Of a stretch of DNA of 23,743 nucleotides, positions 2,362 through 23,547 are shown piece by piece; the first letter of the stretch is position 1; each line of letters begins with the position of its first letter. Both the position numbers and the translations under genes were made by a program. This stretch comes from a virus. The notes beneath the pieces were generated by a model. It was not told the origin of the DNA and did no database searches. It saw nothing but the letters and a program-made list of their open reading frames with translations. The stretch spans positions 15,877 to 39,619 of IMG/VR virus record IMGVR_UViG_3300002519_000008; one strand, 5' to 3'.

Positions 2362-3279
2362 ATGATTGAACTCAAATTCAATGGAAGACACACTCTGTTC
2401 TTTGCCAAACTTGGCGGAAGGATCAAGCAGAAAGACGCCAAAGCTGGGAAATTCAACAGAGTAGGCAAATTGGCTACACATTGGAATGAGATTGAACCCA
2501 GGCTTTATGCTGAACTTGAAAAAGGTTCACAGGAAGCCTTTGCTTGTCTTTTGATGTCGAAGCATGGACTCAGGATTGGGAATGAAGATTCAGCCGGTGG
2601 CTATGTCAGCAAGGTGAAGGGATTCGAAGGAGAGACTGTTTCCACTTACGGAACGAGCACTCTCCTCAAGAGCCATGTTGAAGTGACTGGCAAGACACTG
2701 ACTCTAGACTTCGTTGGAAAGAAGCTTGTAGAACAGAACATTGTAATCACCGATCCGTTGATGGTCAAGTTCGGAGCCAAGTTTCTGAACGATTCCACTA
2801 CTGATCGTTGGTTGAATATCACATCAGCTTCTGTCAAGAAGTTCATGAACAAGAAGATTGATAGAAGGCTGACAATCAAAGACTTTCGAACCTTCTGTGC
2901 AAATTGTATTGCTTGGAAGATCTATGAAGACTCTGTAAAGCCCAATGAAATTCCGAATACGAAAGGAGAGCTCAACAAGGAAATCAAGGTGGTCCTTGAA
3001 GAGACTGCTGAAGTATTGGGAAACACTGCCGGAATATGCAAATCAGCATATGTGTCACCTGAATTTTTAGAACACATCAGAGAAGCCCGAAGTTCGATCA
3101 TTCAGGGCAAGACTGATGAACGAGCAAAGAAGAAGATCGAAAGAGAAGACAAGTGGAAGAAGATGAATGAAGAGAGAGTTGCCAAAGGTCTTTCAAAGAA
3201 GTACAAGAAGAGGAAGAAGAGAGTCACAAAGGGAAAGAGCAATGACAAACAGTCAGATGCCACAGAGAGAGTTGAGTGA
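2362..3279 (+). CDS. DNA topoisomerase, type IB
   Basis: Type IB topoisomerases relax supercoils through a 3'-phosphotyrosyl link. The catalytic set can be read off: Arg71 in HGLRIGNE, Lys120 or 121 in DFVGKK (beta-hairpin Lys), Arg176 in TIKDFRTF, and Tyr230 in ICKSAYVSP. Asn221 (LGNT) stands where vaccinia virus has His, as in bacterial enzymes of this family. The spacing between the first Arg and Lys is longer than in vaccinia, implying a loop insertion near residues 76-96. The last 50 residues form a Lys/Arg-rich tail that could bind DNA. The SD is AAAGGAGG. It is the first gene of the rightward early transcript. T4 itself uses a type II topoisomerase, so a type IB enzyme here is notable. 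Confidence in the family is high. Confidence 0.9.
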   Translation: MIELKFNGRHTLFFAKLGGRIKQKDAKAGKFNRVGKLATHWNEIEPRLYAELEKGSQEAFACLLMSKHGLRIGNEDSAGGYVSKVKGFEGETVSTYGTSTLLKSHVEVTGKTLTLDFVGKKLVEQNIVITDPLMVKFGAKFLNDSTTDRWLNITSASVKKFMNKKIDRRLTIKDFRTFCANCIAWKIYEDSVKPNEIPNTKGELNKEIKVVLEETAEVLGNTAGICKSAYVSPEFLEHIREARSSIIQGKTDERAKKKIEREDKWKKMNEERVAKGLSKKYKKRKKRVTKGKSNDKQSDATERVE

Positions 3280-14807: not shown

Positions 14808-16472
14808 TCATCCTCTTATTAGCCAAAGAAGATCTTCATTGCTATCTCCAACTTTCAAAGTAAGTTCTTTCGGTATAGCTTTTTCAGCTTTAGGTTTTAT
14901 TATACCAAATTCGTAAGGATGATGACTGAAAGACATGTTATCAATAAGTCCCTTCTGTATCTCATTACCAGCTTGATACATCCTAAGCATCGTTCCTCTT
15001 ATAAACACGCCAATGGCTAAAGCTAGAATTAAATCATCGTTATAGCCATCCATGTGTTCGGGTTTACCATTTTCTTTAAATACAAATGTATGGAACTCAG
15101 TAAGTAGTCTAGTAGAATGTAGTATTAAATCATGACTTCTAATTTCTTCTTCCATTCTAGCTATCATAACAGGTCTTGTTCTTGATGTTGTACTGAATCC
15201 TGGTATCATATTCTTTTTTGTAGTGTCATATGGATCATGTATATCTTGTGTTTTATTGATGTCAATAAAGTTTCTAGCTTTGTCTGTCCAATATAAGTTA
15301 CCATAATTAAGATCGAGTATTTTCTGTATTGTTGCCCAACCAACATTGTTATTTTCTGGAACTAATAACGCATTATTGTATTGAACAGCAACTTGTACTA
15401 GCATATGACCAAAAACATCTGTGGGTATCTTACCTTTGTACTCAGCAACTTGCTCATATGCTTCTACATCTATAACGTGAAATGTTGAATAATCCGATCC
15501 ATCACCTCTAGCAACATCAGCTGATATTAGATACTGTCTGGAATAATCAGGGTATTTCCATATCCAGAGATTTTTATCAAAACCTGATTTCTCAATGGGC
15601 TCTCTTTCATGTGGACATTCAGACTCATCAAAGCCTTCTGATATCGTAGGATTCTCTTTGTACCAGAATATATCATTCATGTCTATAACATTACTACCAG
15701 ATTGTAAGAAGTCAGCATCATGTTCTTGTGCAAACGCTCTCAATCCTATACTTTTTCTCATTGATGCTGCCCATTTTTCTTCTCTTTCAGGATGCATAGA
15801 CCAATGAAGTTTTATAGGATTGAATGATATAGATCTTCCACCAACAAGCATTTTACTACCTTGCTCAGCTTCAGTATATAATTTATGGAACCAATTTCCT
15901 ATCCCATTAGGAGTGCTCAGCACAACACAATCACCACCAGTAGACAATGTAGGTTGAGCTGCTATCCATATTTCATCCATATCGTTAATGAACGCAGCTT
16001 CGTCAACAATTAAAAGACTCAACGATTCAGATCTACCGGCTTCTCTAGTAGTAGTAGATGCATGGATCTTTGAGCCATTTGAAAGCTCTACACTTTGTCT
16101 ATTGTCAATAGTTGGCTTGTTCTTATAGGGTTTCAACCAATCAGGCAAGTTGTCAAAAAGTACTTTTACTTTAGATACTAAGTTTGTAGCTACAGTTCCT
16201 TTTGTTGCCAATATATAGATTTCTTTGTTGTCAAAGAATGTCATCAACCATGCTGCATATCCAGCACATAACGTAGACAACCCGAGCTGTCTGGCTTTAA
16301 GTACTATATTATATGAGTTCTTAAGAAAGTGAGTGACACATTCTTCTTGAAAATCCCAGAGATCAAATTTCAACAATCCTTTTGTAGGGTGCCTAACAGT
16401 TCCATACTCTCTTAGAAAGTATATGGGCTCTTTCCTACATTTTATGAATTCTCTAGTCTGATGTTCTGTCAT
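14808..16472 (-). CDS. Terminase large subunit, T4 gp17 type
   Basis: The ATP-driven DNA packaging motor and headful nuclease. With the start at the ATG at 16472 (MTEHQTREF) the product has 554 aa. A TTG upstream gives a hydrophobic leader with no SD and is rejected. The ATPase carries a variant Walker A ARQLGLST (about 60-67; T4 has SRQLGKTT), Walker B LLIVDEA (153-159) and the coupling motif LSTPNG (185-190). The RNase H-like nuclease acidic residues are Asp319 in SADVARGDGSDY, Glu373 in LLVPENNN and Asp479/480 in GYNDDLILAL. Promoter TTGTCA-17-TAGAAT lies just upstream. No small terminase gene was recognised in the window. Confidence 0.95.
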   Translation of the reverse strand: MTEHQTREFIKCRKEPIYFLREYGTVRHPTKGLLKFDLWDFQEECVTHFLKNSYNIVLKARQLGLSTLCAGYAAWLMTFFDNKEIYILATKGTVATNLVSKVKVLFDNLPDWLKPYKNKPTIDNRQSVELSNGSKIHASTTTREAGRSESLSLLIVDEAAFINDMDEIWIAAQPTLSTGGDCVVLSTPNGIGNWFHKLYTEAEQGSKMLVGGRSISFNPIKLHWSMHPEREEKWAASMRKSIGLRAFAQEHDADFLQSGSNVIDMNDIFWYKENPTISEGFDESECPHEREPIEKSGFDKNLWIWKYPDYSRQYLISADVARGDGSDYSTFHVIDVEAYEQVAEYKGKIPTDVFGHMLVQVAVQYNNALLVPENNNVGWATIQKILDLNYGNLYWTDKARNFIDINKTQDIHDPYDTTKKNMIPGFSTTSRTRPVMIARMEEEIRSHDLILHSTRLLTEFHTFVFKENGKPEHMDGYNDDLILALAIGVFIRGTMLRMYQAGNEIQKGLIDNMSFSHHPYEFGIIKPKAEKAIPKELTLKVGDSNEDLLWLIRG

Positions 16473-16506
16473 TGAGAGTTCCCAAACGATAATATATGAT
16501 AACAAT

Positions 16507-16535
16507 ATTCTATATAAATATAGTACTAATGACAA
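16507..16535 (-). promoter_or_regulatory. Sigma70-like promoter for the terminase-portal operon
   Basis: On the minus strand TTGTCA (16535-16530) and TAGAAT (16512-16507) are separated by 17 nt; each hexamer differs from consensus at one position. The leader to the terminase ATG is about 30 nt. An overlapping TATTTATATA lies in the spacer, resembling the candidate late motif. Confidence 0.55.
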
Positions 16536-17618: not shown

Positions 17619-19298
17619 CTATTGTTTTGCAATTTCTATTACTTGGTCAGCAAAACTTGCATCTATAATGTAGTATCCCTTTGTGTAACTGAATAAGACT
17701 TCTTTTTTACTAACAGCTAAAGTTGGTAGACTATCTTTAGAGTTTTTGAAATATCCGGAAAGTGCAAAATCAGCTATTTCTTTATCTTTTGTTAGATATT
17801 TCTCGTTTTCAGGATCGGGATTTTTTTCATATCGTTGTTTTTCAGAAGCATAATTACTAATAGCTTGATAAGGTTGTGAATGGTAGAAATCATCAATCTT
17901 ATTGCTTTGAAAATATGTAGTACCATTTACAGCAAACACTAAGTGCGGTCTTCCATATAAATTACCAAATGCAGGAAGCTGTGCAGGTGTTTTAGAGCTG
18001 TTAAAACAATATGCATATGCTGAATATTGTCTGGAAGGAATGTTTGGGAAATGGTCTTTCCTAAATTCTTCTACATATTCATCAATTTCCTTCTTGCTAT
18101 CTTTTGGTGTCCTTTTATTTAGGTGCTTTATAAATGCATAATCTTTACTAATGCCTTCTCTAACACCTCTTACTAATCCCTTGCCTTTTGCATATGCTTG
18201 CCAAGCAATACTACATTGTTTCTTTATCTTAGTTTCTATTAACTCAGCAACATCTGGTGATTCACTAGTTGCTTTAGAACTTATTGATGGTATAGGAGGA
18301 GGTTTGAATAAGTCGTCAATTTCTTTATTTTTTGCATTCTTTTGCTTCTTCTTCATATCAAGAAGTGCTTTTTTAGCTTTAGCTAGACTTAGATTCGACA
18401 CTACTTTCATATCAACTTTGTTACTTGTGTCAATACCCCCACTATTAGAAAAAGGATACAAACGAACGTTGTTTCCATAAATTGATATCCTGCATGCAGA
18501 AGAATTTTTATTAGTAGAATCAAATCTAACACCTTTTGTTACAAGAGTAGATTTATAAAACGTTCCAATAGCATCTAGATACTCAGCAAATTCTATTGCA
18601 AATTTGTCTGAGCCCTTCTTTTTCAAATGGATTCCTAGTTCTGATGTTGAAGTTTTACTTAATATAGCTTTCTTAGTTTTTGAATCACCTTTGACTCCTT
18701 CTGGAGAAAGGAGACCACGTAATTTTTCTACTTTGTTTGCTGTACTTAGAAGAACTCTTATAATCTTGTTACTTATAAATCTCACTTTAGCTACAGTTCC
18801 TTTACCATACTTCTTTAGTGAGATGTATCTAACTTGAGGGTTACCAGTATACTTTGGTCCTGGCTTGAAAACTTCAACTCTACCTTGTTCTGTATGTGAA
18901 GGCACAAAATCAAAATCAACCATCATACTCATAAGTTGCTTATCAAACGTTGCATTTTTATAACCTTGCTTAACAGGCTTTTCAGGTTCTGGTTCTTCTG
19001 GAATGCCAGTTCCACCTGGAGCAACTAGTTTTTTTGCTTTATTCAGTTTGTTATTAGTAGTAAGAAAAACTCTAATCACTTTGTTATGGAAATATATTTT
19101 TGCAACAGTGCCTTTTGAGTAGTCCTTTAGCGTTATTTCTCTTATATTAGGATTAGCTGCACTAGCTCCTGGCAAGTAAGTAACAATTCTACTACTTTCA
19201 TAGTGCTTATAACCAGCTTTCTCTATAAAGTCTATAAACTTCTCTTTAATCTGAGTTTTGTTATCTAATTCAAGCAATAGCGATTCTAATAAATTCAT
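17619..19298 (-). CDS. Multi-module protein with possible ADP-ribosyltransferase-like C-terminus
   Basis: The 559-aa product begins MNLLESLLLELDN, with LLE-S as a possible prohead protease cut. Two imperfect repeats follow (about 20-95 and 120-200), each with a KGTVAK block, an IRV(F/L)L block and TxNK. A third, weaker segment covers 235-310. After a Pro/Ser linker the C-terminal domain has GLVRGVREG near 375, HLNKRTPKDSKK near 395, RQYSAYAYCFNSS near 425 and a later LVFAVNG. The Arg-Gly strand and the YSA strand resemble the R-S part of R-S-E ADP-ribosyltransferases, but I see no clear ExE motif. T4 Alt is an ART packaged in the head and injected; this could be an analogue. The family call is tentative. 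Confidence 0.5.
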   Translation of the reverse strand: MNLLESLLLELDNKTQIKEKFIDFIEKAGYKHYESSRIVTYLPGASAANPNIREITLKDYSKGTVAKIYFHNKVIRVFLTTNNKLNKAKKLVAPGGTGIPEEPEPEKPVKQGYKNATFDKQLMSMMVDFDFVPSHTEQGRVEVFKPGPKYTGNPQVRYISLKKYGKGTVAKVRFISNKIIRVLLSTANKVEKLRGLLSPEGVKGDSKTKKAILSKTSTSELGIHLKKKGSDKFAIEFAEYLDAIGTFYKSTLVTKGVRFDSTNKNSSACRISIYGNNVRLYPFSNSGGIDTSNKVDMKVVSNLSLAKAKKALLDMKKKQKNAKNKEIDDLFKPPPIPSISSKATSESPDVAELIETKIKKQCSIAWQAYAKGKGLVRGVREGISKDYAFIKHLNKRTPKDSKKEIDEYVEEFRKDHFPNIPSRQYSAYAYCFNSSKTPAQLPAFGNLYGRPHLVFAVNGTTYFQSNKIDDFYHSQPYQAISNYASEKQRYEKNPDPENEKYLTKDKEIADFALSGYFKNSKDSLPTLAVSKKEVLFSYTKGYYIIDASFADQVIEIAKQ

Positions 19299-19307
19299 CA
19301 ACACTCT

Positions 19308-19943
19308 CTATTTAGTTATCTTGTTCCCATTGTATCTATACCAAGCACTCACATTATCCGAATTATACATGATCAAGTAAAGATCAGGGTCAAATAGATT
19401 CCAGAACTTCTTGATTCTGCTTTGTGACTTTTCCCAAGAATGCTTTAGATAATCTAGCTCTACTTGTCTATCAGTTTTCTCATTTCTCTTTACTGTTGTT
19501 TCTAATGGAGAGAACGCATGAAGGAATACAACTTTGTAGCCATTCTTCTTTGACGCATTGATGACTGACCTGTATTTCATATATGAACTGCCTGTAACAT
19601 CATAGACTACAACAATACGGTCTTTTCTCTTATCACCAACTATATTTCCGAATCTCTTACTAGCTAATGTAGTTGACCCTTTGTGATAGATGTTTGTGTC
19701 ACCTGTAAACTTCATTGATATATCGTCAACAGCGACAACAACTACGTTTCTTGCTTTAGGTTTGATATATTTGTTGATAATTGTGCTTTTACCAGTCCTG
19801 GGTGAACCGGCTAGAAAGATGGCAACATTTTCATTTGAGGAAAGGATCTTGTTAAGGTCTGATTGAGAACTTTCTACTAATATACTATTTTCTATAAATA
19901 TAGAATTTAATTCTTGTTCAAACAATATTGTTTCAAGCTTCAT
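19308..19943 (-). CDS. P-loop kinase-like protein, 211 aa
   Basis: A Walker A motif, AGSPRTGKST, at residues 45-54 follows a hydrophobic strand, as in zeta-toxin-like and polynucleotide-kinase-like P-loop kinases. Further strands are NVVVVAVDDISMKF (about 66-79), DRIVVVYDVTGSS and YKVVFLHAFSP. The N-terminus MKLETILFEQELNS leads to ILVE-SSQ at 21-27, a fit to the prohead protease consensus, so residues 1-24 could be a removable capsid-targeting leader. The ATG follows GAGAT. It is the gene before the ART-like gene, ending 9 nt before that start. The substrate cannot be inferred; a nucleotide, a nucleic-acid end or a sugar nucleotide are options. Confidence 0.7.
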   Translation of the reverse strand: MKLETILFEQELNSIFIENSILVESSQSDLNKILSSNENVAIFLAGSPRTGKSTIINKYIKPKARNVVVVAVDDISMKFTGDTNIYHKGSTTLASKRFGNIVGDKRKDRIVVVYDVTGSSYMKYRSVINASKKNGYKVVFLHAFSPLETTVKRNEKTDRQVELDYLKHSWEKSQSRIKKFWNLFDPDLYLIMYNSDNVSAWYRYNGNKITK

Positions 19944-20219: not shown

Positions 20220-20521
20220 TGGTGGACCCGCTGGGGTTCGAACCCAGGTGTTGTATAGTTCAATGAAAGAAGTTCGTTCACATTCATAGTCGATTTAAGA
20301 TTAGCCACCGAGAGTCAATCGACAAATTCTCTCAGTGTCATTACAAGGTGTTCGTGTGTTCATTACCGATTCGGTAACGAGGAAATTATAATCTTATCGG
20401 TGTCCGAAGTTCCCCGGGCTACTTATGCAGCCATCCTGTATGAATCGTCATTTACTTTTTTACTGCAGTTGAATGCACTTCAGTTCATTACATCCTACCA
20501 GTCGATTCCAGTGTCGGGCCC
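20220..20521 (-). ncRNA. ssrA: Transfer-messenger RNA (tmRNA), phage-encoded
   Basis: The RNA of about 302 nt rescues stalled ribosomes. The 5' end GGGCCCG (20521-20515) pairs over 7 bp with CGGGTCC (20230-20224), followed by an encoded ACCA (20223-20220). The stem contains the G3-U pair needed for alanine charging. The T-arm CTGGG/CCCAG with loop TTCGAAC lies at 20247-20231. Near the 5' end CACTGGAATCGACTGG matches the tmRNA signature. A small pseudoknot (20482-20464, TGAA/TTCA stem with TGCA loop pairing to a downstream TGCA) precedes the tag frame 20455-20423. The tag reads VNDDSYRMAA then TAA, against E. coli ANDENYALAA. It is one-piece, and shorter than E. coli's 363 nt. The resume codon appears to be GTA, which is unusual and uncertain. 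Confidence 0.95.
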
Positions 20522-22170: not shown

Positions 22171-23547
22171 TTACATAACTTGCTTAAGATCACCAAAGTC
22201 TCTAGCTATTCTATTTATCTCCCTTTCTTGAAACTCTTCAGTCTTCTCTAGCAAGAACATCAACCTATTTTCAGCATCATCATTAAGATCATATCGTTCA
22301 TCTGAAAATTTAGTTATTTCATTTGTGACTTCAATTGCAGTGTCAATAGGTTTCACACCATTCTCTATTCCCTTACTCAGTACATCAACCCAATGACTCA
22401 CAGAATCAATCCATTGCTTGGGCATCATAGAGACAATAGCCATATTTTTCTGTCTTATCTCTCTTGGAACTGCATCCCAAAAATCTTTATACCCACCATA
22501 CAAACTAAATACAGGAATGCAATTGTAATGCAAGCTTTCAACTGTCTTGATTTCTGATTTGCAGCTATTAAAAGCATTATGTTCTATATAAGCAAGTGAG
22601 ATATCAAACAAAGAATAGAATTTACCATACATCTCTAATGGAAGAGCATCAAATATCTTAAGCCTGTCACTATCTATATCAGAATATAAGCTTTTGACTC
22701 TATTCTTATAGAGCATACTCTCATCTTCTATTTCTTTCTCTTTAAACATTGGCTTGTTGTCTTCATCATATTGTATTTCAATAGAAGAGTCTTTCAAAGC
22801 CATACCTGCAAGAACAAAATACGTATTAGGATGCTTGTCATGAATCTTCTTAATTACTCCATGCATCCTTTTAATATCCTCATAATGCGAAGTTAGACCA
22901 GCCCATCCAATTATGACTTTGTCATCTGTAGGATACCAATCTTCTAACATCTCTTTTCTTGTTACTTCTTTATCTAGATTCCATTGAGGTAAGTCCCAAT
23001 CAAACATATTTCTAATTACATAAACTTCATTGTTCAAGAATTTGAATGTCTTATGAAGTTTCTCTGTTGTTGTACAAACAAACTCAGAATGCTTGATAGT
23101 TTGAATAGACATCTTGTCTTTACCAGAGGCATACCACAACTCTCTCATTGGGTGTGTCTTTGGAAGATTGAATTCATTATCATCAACATCATGTACTATC
23201 AATGGCTTCTGTTCTGTCTGTGGCCACCTCTGAGATACTGATACGAAATGAGAATGAAGGTTACCGGCTCGATGCATTATAATAGCATCTGCCAACTTAA
23301 GATGATTGGGTTGCAAATTCTCTGTATATACAAAATTTGCTTCATCTTTCAAATGCTTCCACATAACTCTCATTGGTTCAAAGATTCTAAAAAAAGACGT
23401 CCCAGTTTCTGAAGGTGTTGAAAAAACAAAGGTCTTCTTTCTCCTGTCAATTGAACTGGGGTATGTGAAATATTGTTTTAGAACATCTCGTTCTTCTGAG
23501 TTGTTATATTTCATACATCTTTCAACGTTTTCTATACTTAAATCCAT
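22171..23547 (-). CDS. GT-B type glycosyltransferase, 458 aa
   Basis: The C-terminal half has features of retaining GT-B (GT4-like) enzymes: VIIGWAGLTSHYEDIKRM at the start of the donor domain, YFVLAGMAL, then LKIFDALPLEMYGKFYSLFD, and KSEIKTVESLHYNCIPV, the region that contacts the nucleotide-sugar. The N-terminal half has strands and His-rich contacts (AIIMHRAGNLHSHF, LIVHDVDDNEF) of an acceptor domain. There is no membrane segment. An AGGAGG SD lies 4 nt before the ATG and a sigma70-like promoter about 60 nt upstream. Phage enzymes of this kind modify phage DNA bases, virion proteins or host surface sugars; the acceptor cannot be read from sequence. Confidence 0.85.
   Translation of the reverse strand: MDLSIENVERCMKYNNSEERDVLKQYFTYPSSIDRRKKTFVFSTPSETGTSFFRIFEPMRVMWKHLKDEANFVYTENLQPNHLKLADAIIMHRAGNLHSHFVSVSQRWPQTEQKPLIVHDVDDNEFNLPKTHPMRELWYASGKDKMSIQTIKHSEFVCTTTEKLHKTFKFLNNEVYVIRNMFDWDLPQWNLDKEVTRKEMLEDWYPTDDKVIIGWAGLTSHYEDIKRMHGVIKKIHDKHPNTYFVLAGMALKDSSIEIQYDEDNKPMFKEKEIEDESMLYKNRVKSLYSDIDSDRLKIFDALPLEMYGKFYSLFDISLAYIEHNAFNSCKSEIKTVESLHYNCIPVFSLYGGYKDFWDAVPREIRQKNMAIVSMMPKQWIDSVSHWVDVLSKGIENGVKPIDTAIEVTNEITKFSDERYDLNDDAENRLMFLLEKTEEFQEREINRIARDFGDLKQVM

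Follow-up and report, generated by a model that had tools for sequence, protein, structure and literature searches.

A one-piece tmRNA gene of a marine T4-like phage that apparently has an A-rich linker in place of pseudoknot 1

Background

The locus described here raises the question of whether an RNA gene lying between the glycosyltransferase and terminase genes of a phage is a complete and working tmRNA and, if so, at which codon translation resumes and what occupies the place of pseudoknot 1 (PK1). PK1, the pseudoknot beside the resume codon, is retained by almost every one-piece tmRNA. It was well supported in a 274-tmRNA alignment published in 2005, the exceptions being Oenococcus oeni, a partial chloroplast sequence and a mitochondrial RNA (PMC1168896). 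In E. coli, tagging persists when PK1 is cut down to a hairpin or exchanged for single-stranded RNA (PMC4236655). The DNA analyzed, referred to as the window, is a stretch of 23,743 nucleotides that forms part of a 39,619-base virus record.

Results

The virus and the gene neighborhood

The window carries a T4-type terminase, portal, prohead protease and major head protein on the minus strand (phrog_2, phrog_213, phrog_207 and phrog_138, respectively), and the virus is a marine T4-like (myovirus-type) phage. The large terminase gene (14808-16535, minus strand, phrog_2) is downstream of the tmRNA on the same strand, an arrangement that is syntenic in the related contig L004. Upstream of the tmRNA is a glycosyltransferase (GT)-like gene (22171-23547, minus strand; phrog_7162, E 1.8e-16), which is a conserved neighbor in relatives that have the tmRNA downstream of it. 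The clade of related phages was fetched by terminase and GT searches of viral contigs, and 13 different tmRNA sequences were gathered from it. The order GT, tmRNA, terminase on a single strand was kept wherever the contig was long enough; the gene upstream of the tmRNA in L004 is a SpoVR gene in place of GT. The nearest annotated phages by terminase were Microcystis phage Mel-JY01 and the Flavobacterium immuto phages, at 42-44% identity, and a search for a full tmRNA in these phages found none. A search for SmpB genes found none, either in the record that contains the window or in 16 further phage records, mostly fragments, so that host SmpB would probably be needed.

Three other genes of the window were recorded. 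A P-loop kinase of the zeta-toxin/polynucleotide-kinase type (19308-19943) lies between the tmRNA and the terminase; such a kinase is also near the tmRNA in L004 and is more distant in other relatives. A 561-residue protein of unknown function (17619-19304) has a C-terminal part that matches three tandem L004 genes downstream of the tmRNA. A type IB topoisomerase-like protein (2362-3279; PF01028, E 2.9e-16) is encoded on the plus strand, opposite the structural genes.

Identity and detection of the tmRNA gene

The gene is a one-piece tmRNA (ssrA) gene of 302 nucleotides on the minus strand (20521-20220), complete and with an encoded CCA, as the first-pass annotation had proposed. In a local Rfam scan, positions 1-374 of the RF00023 model aligned with it end to end (40.8 bits, E 6.5e-15). 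The match was therefore full-length, but its score was below the RF00023 gathering score of 47, a curated detection cut-off and not a biological feature. PK1-bearing relatives in the clade scored 67-137 bits against the same model. Default ARAGORN called no tmRNA in the window. When its threshold was lowered to 50% (-ps50), a setting too noisy for sole use across loci, the program returned exactly 20220-20521 with the tag DDSYRMAA. The failure of both default ARAGORN and the Rfam gathering score to detect the gene is probably due to the absence of PK1, described below.

Independent support came from a leave-one-out DNA profile built from three relatives with the window excluded, which found the window tmRNA at E 7.9e-36, the runner-up being at E 3.9. 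A structural descriptor comprising the acceptor stem, T-stem, CCA and 5' signature gave a single match in 19 Mb of random sequence. Moreover, the 3' half of the tmRNA in another contig, L002, was identical to that of the window. The window tmRNA is thus genuine and conserved in related viruses. A 26-nucleotide BLASTN match to Streptomyces phages, found among annotated phages and confined to the tRNA-like part, was rejected (E 0.1). The exact 5' pattern had no match in viral contigs, and a looser version gave 12 matches, mostly chance, among which L004 was recovered again as L090.

Secondary structure and covariation

All of the elements of the tRNA-like domain noted at first were present. The 5' strand of the acceptor stem, GGGCCCG (20515-20521), pairs at all seven positions with the 3' strand, CGGGTCC (20224-20230), which is followed by A-CCA (20220-20223). 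The third pair is G-U in each of the four PK1-free sequences identified in the clade (the window, L004, L117 and L118). The 5' signature TGGAATCGAC and the T-arm, CTGGG-TTCGAAC-CCCAG (20231-20247), complete the domain. The T-loops of the L004 and L117 tmRNAs, two of the four, have 8 nucleotides rather than 7. Close relatives keep the acceptor stem, the T-arm and the tag frame, none of which has been lost.

Helix 2 (2c and 2d), which joins the tRNA-like and mRNA-like domains, is formed by GAAGT-GCATTC (20471-20481) and GAATGT..ACTTC (20269-20285); all 40 of its cells, one for each pair in each sequence, were paired, with compensatory changes in the relatives. The helix 5 hairpin, GGCT-GCATAAGT-AGCC (20417-20432), also has compensatory changes and carries the stop codon in its loop, as in known tmRNAs. 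Two pseudoknots follow, PK2 at 20365-20416 (CGGGGAA/TTCCTCG and ACCGAT/ATCGGT) and PK4 at 20289-20337 (CACTGAGAG/CTCTCGGTG and GTCGATT/AATCGAC), in which every cell was paired and 17 pairs were compensated. All of these elements are on the minus strand. The gap between PK2 and PK4 is 27 nucleotides, and consequently there is no room for PK3.

The covariation set consisted of only the four PK1-free sequences, which are 67-76% identical. Nine helices were located in all four RNAs: the acceptor stem, the T-arm, 2c, 2d, helix 5, the two PK2 stems and the two PK4 stems. The pairs were registered by hand, MAFFT having misaligned helix 2 of the four RNAs, and counted in Python. The 49 aligned pairs gave standard pairing in 196 of 196 cells, and 30 of the 49 had double-sided compensatory changes. 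When the partners were slid by 1-3 nucleotides, 64-94 of the 196 cells paired and 3-6 pairs appeared compensated, a control biased in favor of the proposed structure because the pairs had been registered from these same four sequences. The count of compensated pairs is the stronger measure.

Absence of PK1

The first-pass annotation had included a plausible PK1, and this element turned out to be absent. The site of PK1 is occupied by an A-rich linker of 21 nucleotides (20450-20470, minus strand) in which no pseudoknot could be drawn. A search for an H-type pseudoknot with stems of at least 4 bp in the 24-32 nucleotides before the resume codon (32 in the window) found none in any of the four sequences, in which the distance from helix 2d to the resume codon is 21 (window), 17, 16 and 17 nucleotides. 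PK1 was drawable in each of the nine remaining clade members, whose resume codons lie at nucleotides 92-97, as against 65-73 in the PK1-free four. The window codon, at nucleotide 73, is likewise early in comparison with the tag starts at 85-99 in 27 one-piece tmRNAs from diverse bacteria (ARAGORN calls, two overlapping spurious calls having been discarded).

The three PK1-free lineages that carry GT formed one group (92/97) in the GT tree, nested in the PK1-bearing ones, which is consistent with a single loss of PK1. Thus PK1 has apparently been lost in a phage subclade, where a single-stranded A-rich linker of 16-21 nucleotides is predicted in its place. When prokaryote species genomes were scanned for the PK1-free signature, there were 101 pattern matches, none with tmRNA structure; the pattern fixes GTGCANYY and the filter needs an encoded CCA, so that other PK1-free forms could escape it.

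The resume codon

Two codons of one open frame could serve as the resume codon. The tag frame that begins at GAC (20447-20449) runs GAC GAT TCA TAC AGG ATG GCT GCA TAA (20423-20449, minus strand) and encodes DDSYRMAA. The codon proposed initially, GTA (20453-20455, minus strand), lies two codons upstream and would extend the tag to VNDDSYRMAA. Several observations make GAC the most likely resume codon: 1) it is preceded by a canonical UAAAU, which has the natural-tmRNA pattern of U at -5, A at -4, a purine at -3 and a pyrimidine at -1, 2) each of the 13 clade sequences has in this register a codon beginning with G (GAC, GGC or GCC), with an A at -4, the upstream pentamers being TAACT, TATCT, TAAAT, GAACT and TATTC, and 3) both Rfam and ARAGORN set the resume codon at GAC. 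The A at -4 is the most important upstream position in E. coli (PMC2481249). Asp is a documented but infrequent resume codon, present in 3 of 274 tmRNAs (PMC1168896).

A functional tmRNA that resumes at GTA has some points in its favor. Its ten-codon tag could be aligned codon for codon with the E. coli tag ANDENYALAA, the linker would be 15 nucleotides, close to the 16-17 of the relatives, and L117 also has GTA at the matching place. However, GTA is preceded by AAAAA, with A at both -5 and -1; in natural tmRNAs A at -1 is rare, and in E. coli a change of U to A at -5 gives reading in the -1 frame (PMC2481249). Nor is the register kept, since GTA occurs there only in the window and L117, the equivalent codon being AGA or ATA in L004 and L118 and ATA, CTA or TTA in the PK1-bearing relatives. 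Resumption at GTA is therefore improbable and the original assignment was probably wrong.

A bacterial tmRNA (L335) may provide an example of resumption at a Val codon in a canonical context. In it, UAAAU precedes GTA GAT GCG AAC..., and ARAGORN places the start of that tag at GCG, two codons after GTA.

The tag peptide

With a GAC start, the window tag has eight codons and the peptide on rescued chains would most likely be Ala-DDSYRMAA. The divergent tag and the frame ending in -MAA described at first are indeed present, but the first two residues, V and N, were probably misassigned; consequently the Asn of the SspB motif, which was thought to be retained, is probably not encoded. The tags of the PK1-free relatives are DEQYALAA (L004), DETYALAA (L117) and DNEYSLAA (L118). 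Those of the PK1-bearing members are GEETHQYKMAA (L110), DETQEYRLAA (L104, L106), AEETTEYALAA (L082, L084, L129) and DEELEYKMAA (L083, L086, L087), so that an open tag ending in [LM]AA is kept in 13 of 13 clade tmRNAs.

It had also been suggested that -MAA in place of -LAA might weaken ClpXP targeting, a suggestion for which no support was found. ClpX recognizes chiefly the terminal Ala-Ala-COO- (PMC7652416), which is intact in the window tag. The -MAA ending recurs in the L110 and L083/L086/L087 tags, and a pattern search found YAMAA tags in 16 of 296 Bacteroidota-group genomes, all confirmed by ARAGORN. The idea that -MAA is a novel degron class was rejected for this reason. The exact window tag was unseen elsewhere among the fetched sequences, but its ending is common.

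Tags of unusual length were also seen in phage contigs. A tmRNA in a 193-kb viral contig (L094, 985-1409 in minus-strand coordinates, record G061) has a 39-codon tag (ANIKDVAPMTASEFAASWGGNTPVFKMSDYRSSKLALCA), and similarly long tags occur in L116 (GKRLSPFGIDDFLL...VYAQA) and LR756508 (L144, GVNNADYESAG...KPAAV).

Discussion

Proposed function

The gene has the identity of a tmRNA, a covarying structure, a conserved tag frame and a conserved position in the clade, and it has no PK1. The reading we prefer is that it is very probably a functional one-piece tmRNA of a marine T4-like phage that resumes at GAC and has lost PK1, its activity being predicted from these features. Host AlaRS would probably charge the RNA with alanine by way of the G3-U pair, and host SmpB would probably bind it. 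The charged RNA would then enter ribosomes stalled on broken or non-stop mRNA, and translation would resume at GAC, positioned by the canonical UAAAU just upstream. Ala-DDSYRMAA would thus be added to the chain as a presumed degron for a ClpXP-type protease. The likely benefit to the phage would be that ribosomes are kept free while mRNA is broken in infection.

Another explanation is that the RNA is a decoy or SmpB sponge whose tRNA-like domain blocks host trans-translation, the tag frame being incidental. Its location in a phage and the loss of PK1 would suit such a role, and a decoy-type role has been suggested for a phage molecule that consists of the TLD alone, that of mycobacteriophage DS6A (PMC4131195). 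For the present gene it is quite unlikely, because the gene has retained the tag frame, the A at -4, helix 5 with its stop codon, PK2 and PK4, with compensatory changes, and also the G3-U pair; the same features argue for a working tmRNA over a relic. Decay of a host-captured tmRNA that is shedding its parts would account for the missing PK1 and the low Rfam score. It is very improbable given 30 compensated pairs and an intact tag across four sequences that are 67-76% identical, and given that PK1-bearing sister lineages hold a tmRNA at the same locus. Chance resemblance or misassembly, to which the misses by default ARAGORN and the Rfam gathering score might point, has already been refuted by the independent profile match and by syntenic homologues in independent contigs.

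Significance

As far as the tools used show, the functional tmRNA preferred here belongs to a new lineage of one-piece phage tmRNAs that have no PK1 and are missed by default ARAGORN. In this lineage, evolution apparently made the exchange of PK1 for single-stranded RNA that experiments in E. coli tolerate. We consider it somewhat more probable than the contrary that these RNAs represent a class of PK1-free, two-pseudoknot, one-piece tmRNAs, with an A-rich linker for PK1, that arose once in a marine T4-like phage clade, trans-translates with host SmpB, and is missed by standard annotation and undercounted. Default ARAGORN is the tool behind published counts of phage tmRNAs and it misses the PK1-free gene, so that these counts are lower bounds. 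Moreover, the occurrence of a PK1-free lineage and PK1-bearing sisters in one clade makes the role of PK1 testable with natural pairs.

Comparison with known tmRNAs

An ARAGORN survey reports tmRNAs in 402 of 18,146 phage genomes and describes marine or aquatic phages as the source of most two-piece tmRNAs and few one-piece ones (PMC9004378); compared with that account, the window tmRNA is of marine type yet one-piece. Phage-encoded tmRNAs also appear in two other reports (PMC4131195, PMC7162821), and ssrA is likewise borne by mycobacteriophages Bxz1 and Wildcat, Bacillus phage G, huge phages and the OM43 phage Melnitz. The passages of the phage-tmRNA literature that were covered contained no description of PK1 loss.

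The Bacteroidota-group tags, such as ADDYSYAMAA and GETSYAMAA, share with the window tag the -MAA ending and a preceding Tyr. Their tmRNAs differ in that the tag has 9-10 codons and the resume codon is at nucleotides 94-103, a position that fits the presence of PK1.

With the canonical one-piece tmRNA of the E. coli ssrA type, the window tmRNA has in common the acceptor stem with G3-U, the CCA, the T-arm, helix 2, the tag frame, helix 5 with the stop codon, PK2, PK4 and the A at -4. It differs in that it has no PK1, no room for PK3, an Asp resume codon and an eight-codon tag. The tmRNAs of Oenococcus oeni, the Pavlova lutheri chloroplast and the Reclinomonas mitochondrion likewise have no PK1 pseudoknot. 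In Oenococcus and Pavlova, helix 4 alone is missing and part of PK1 remains, while the Reclinomonas mitochondrial tmRNA is without any pseudoknot and apparently without an ORF (PMC1168896). The window tmRNA differs from these reduced-PK1 molecules in that both PK1 helices are gone and PK2 and PK4 remain.
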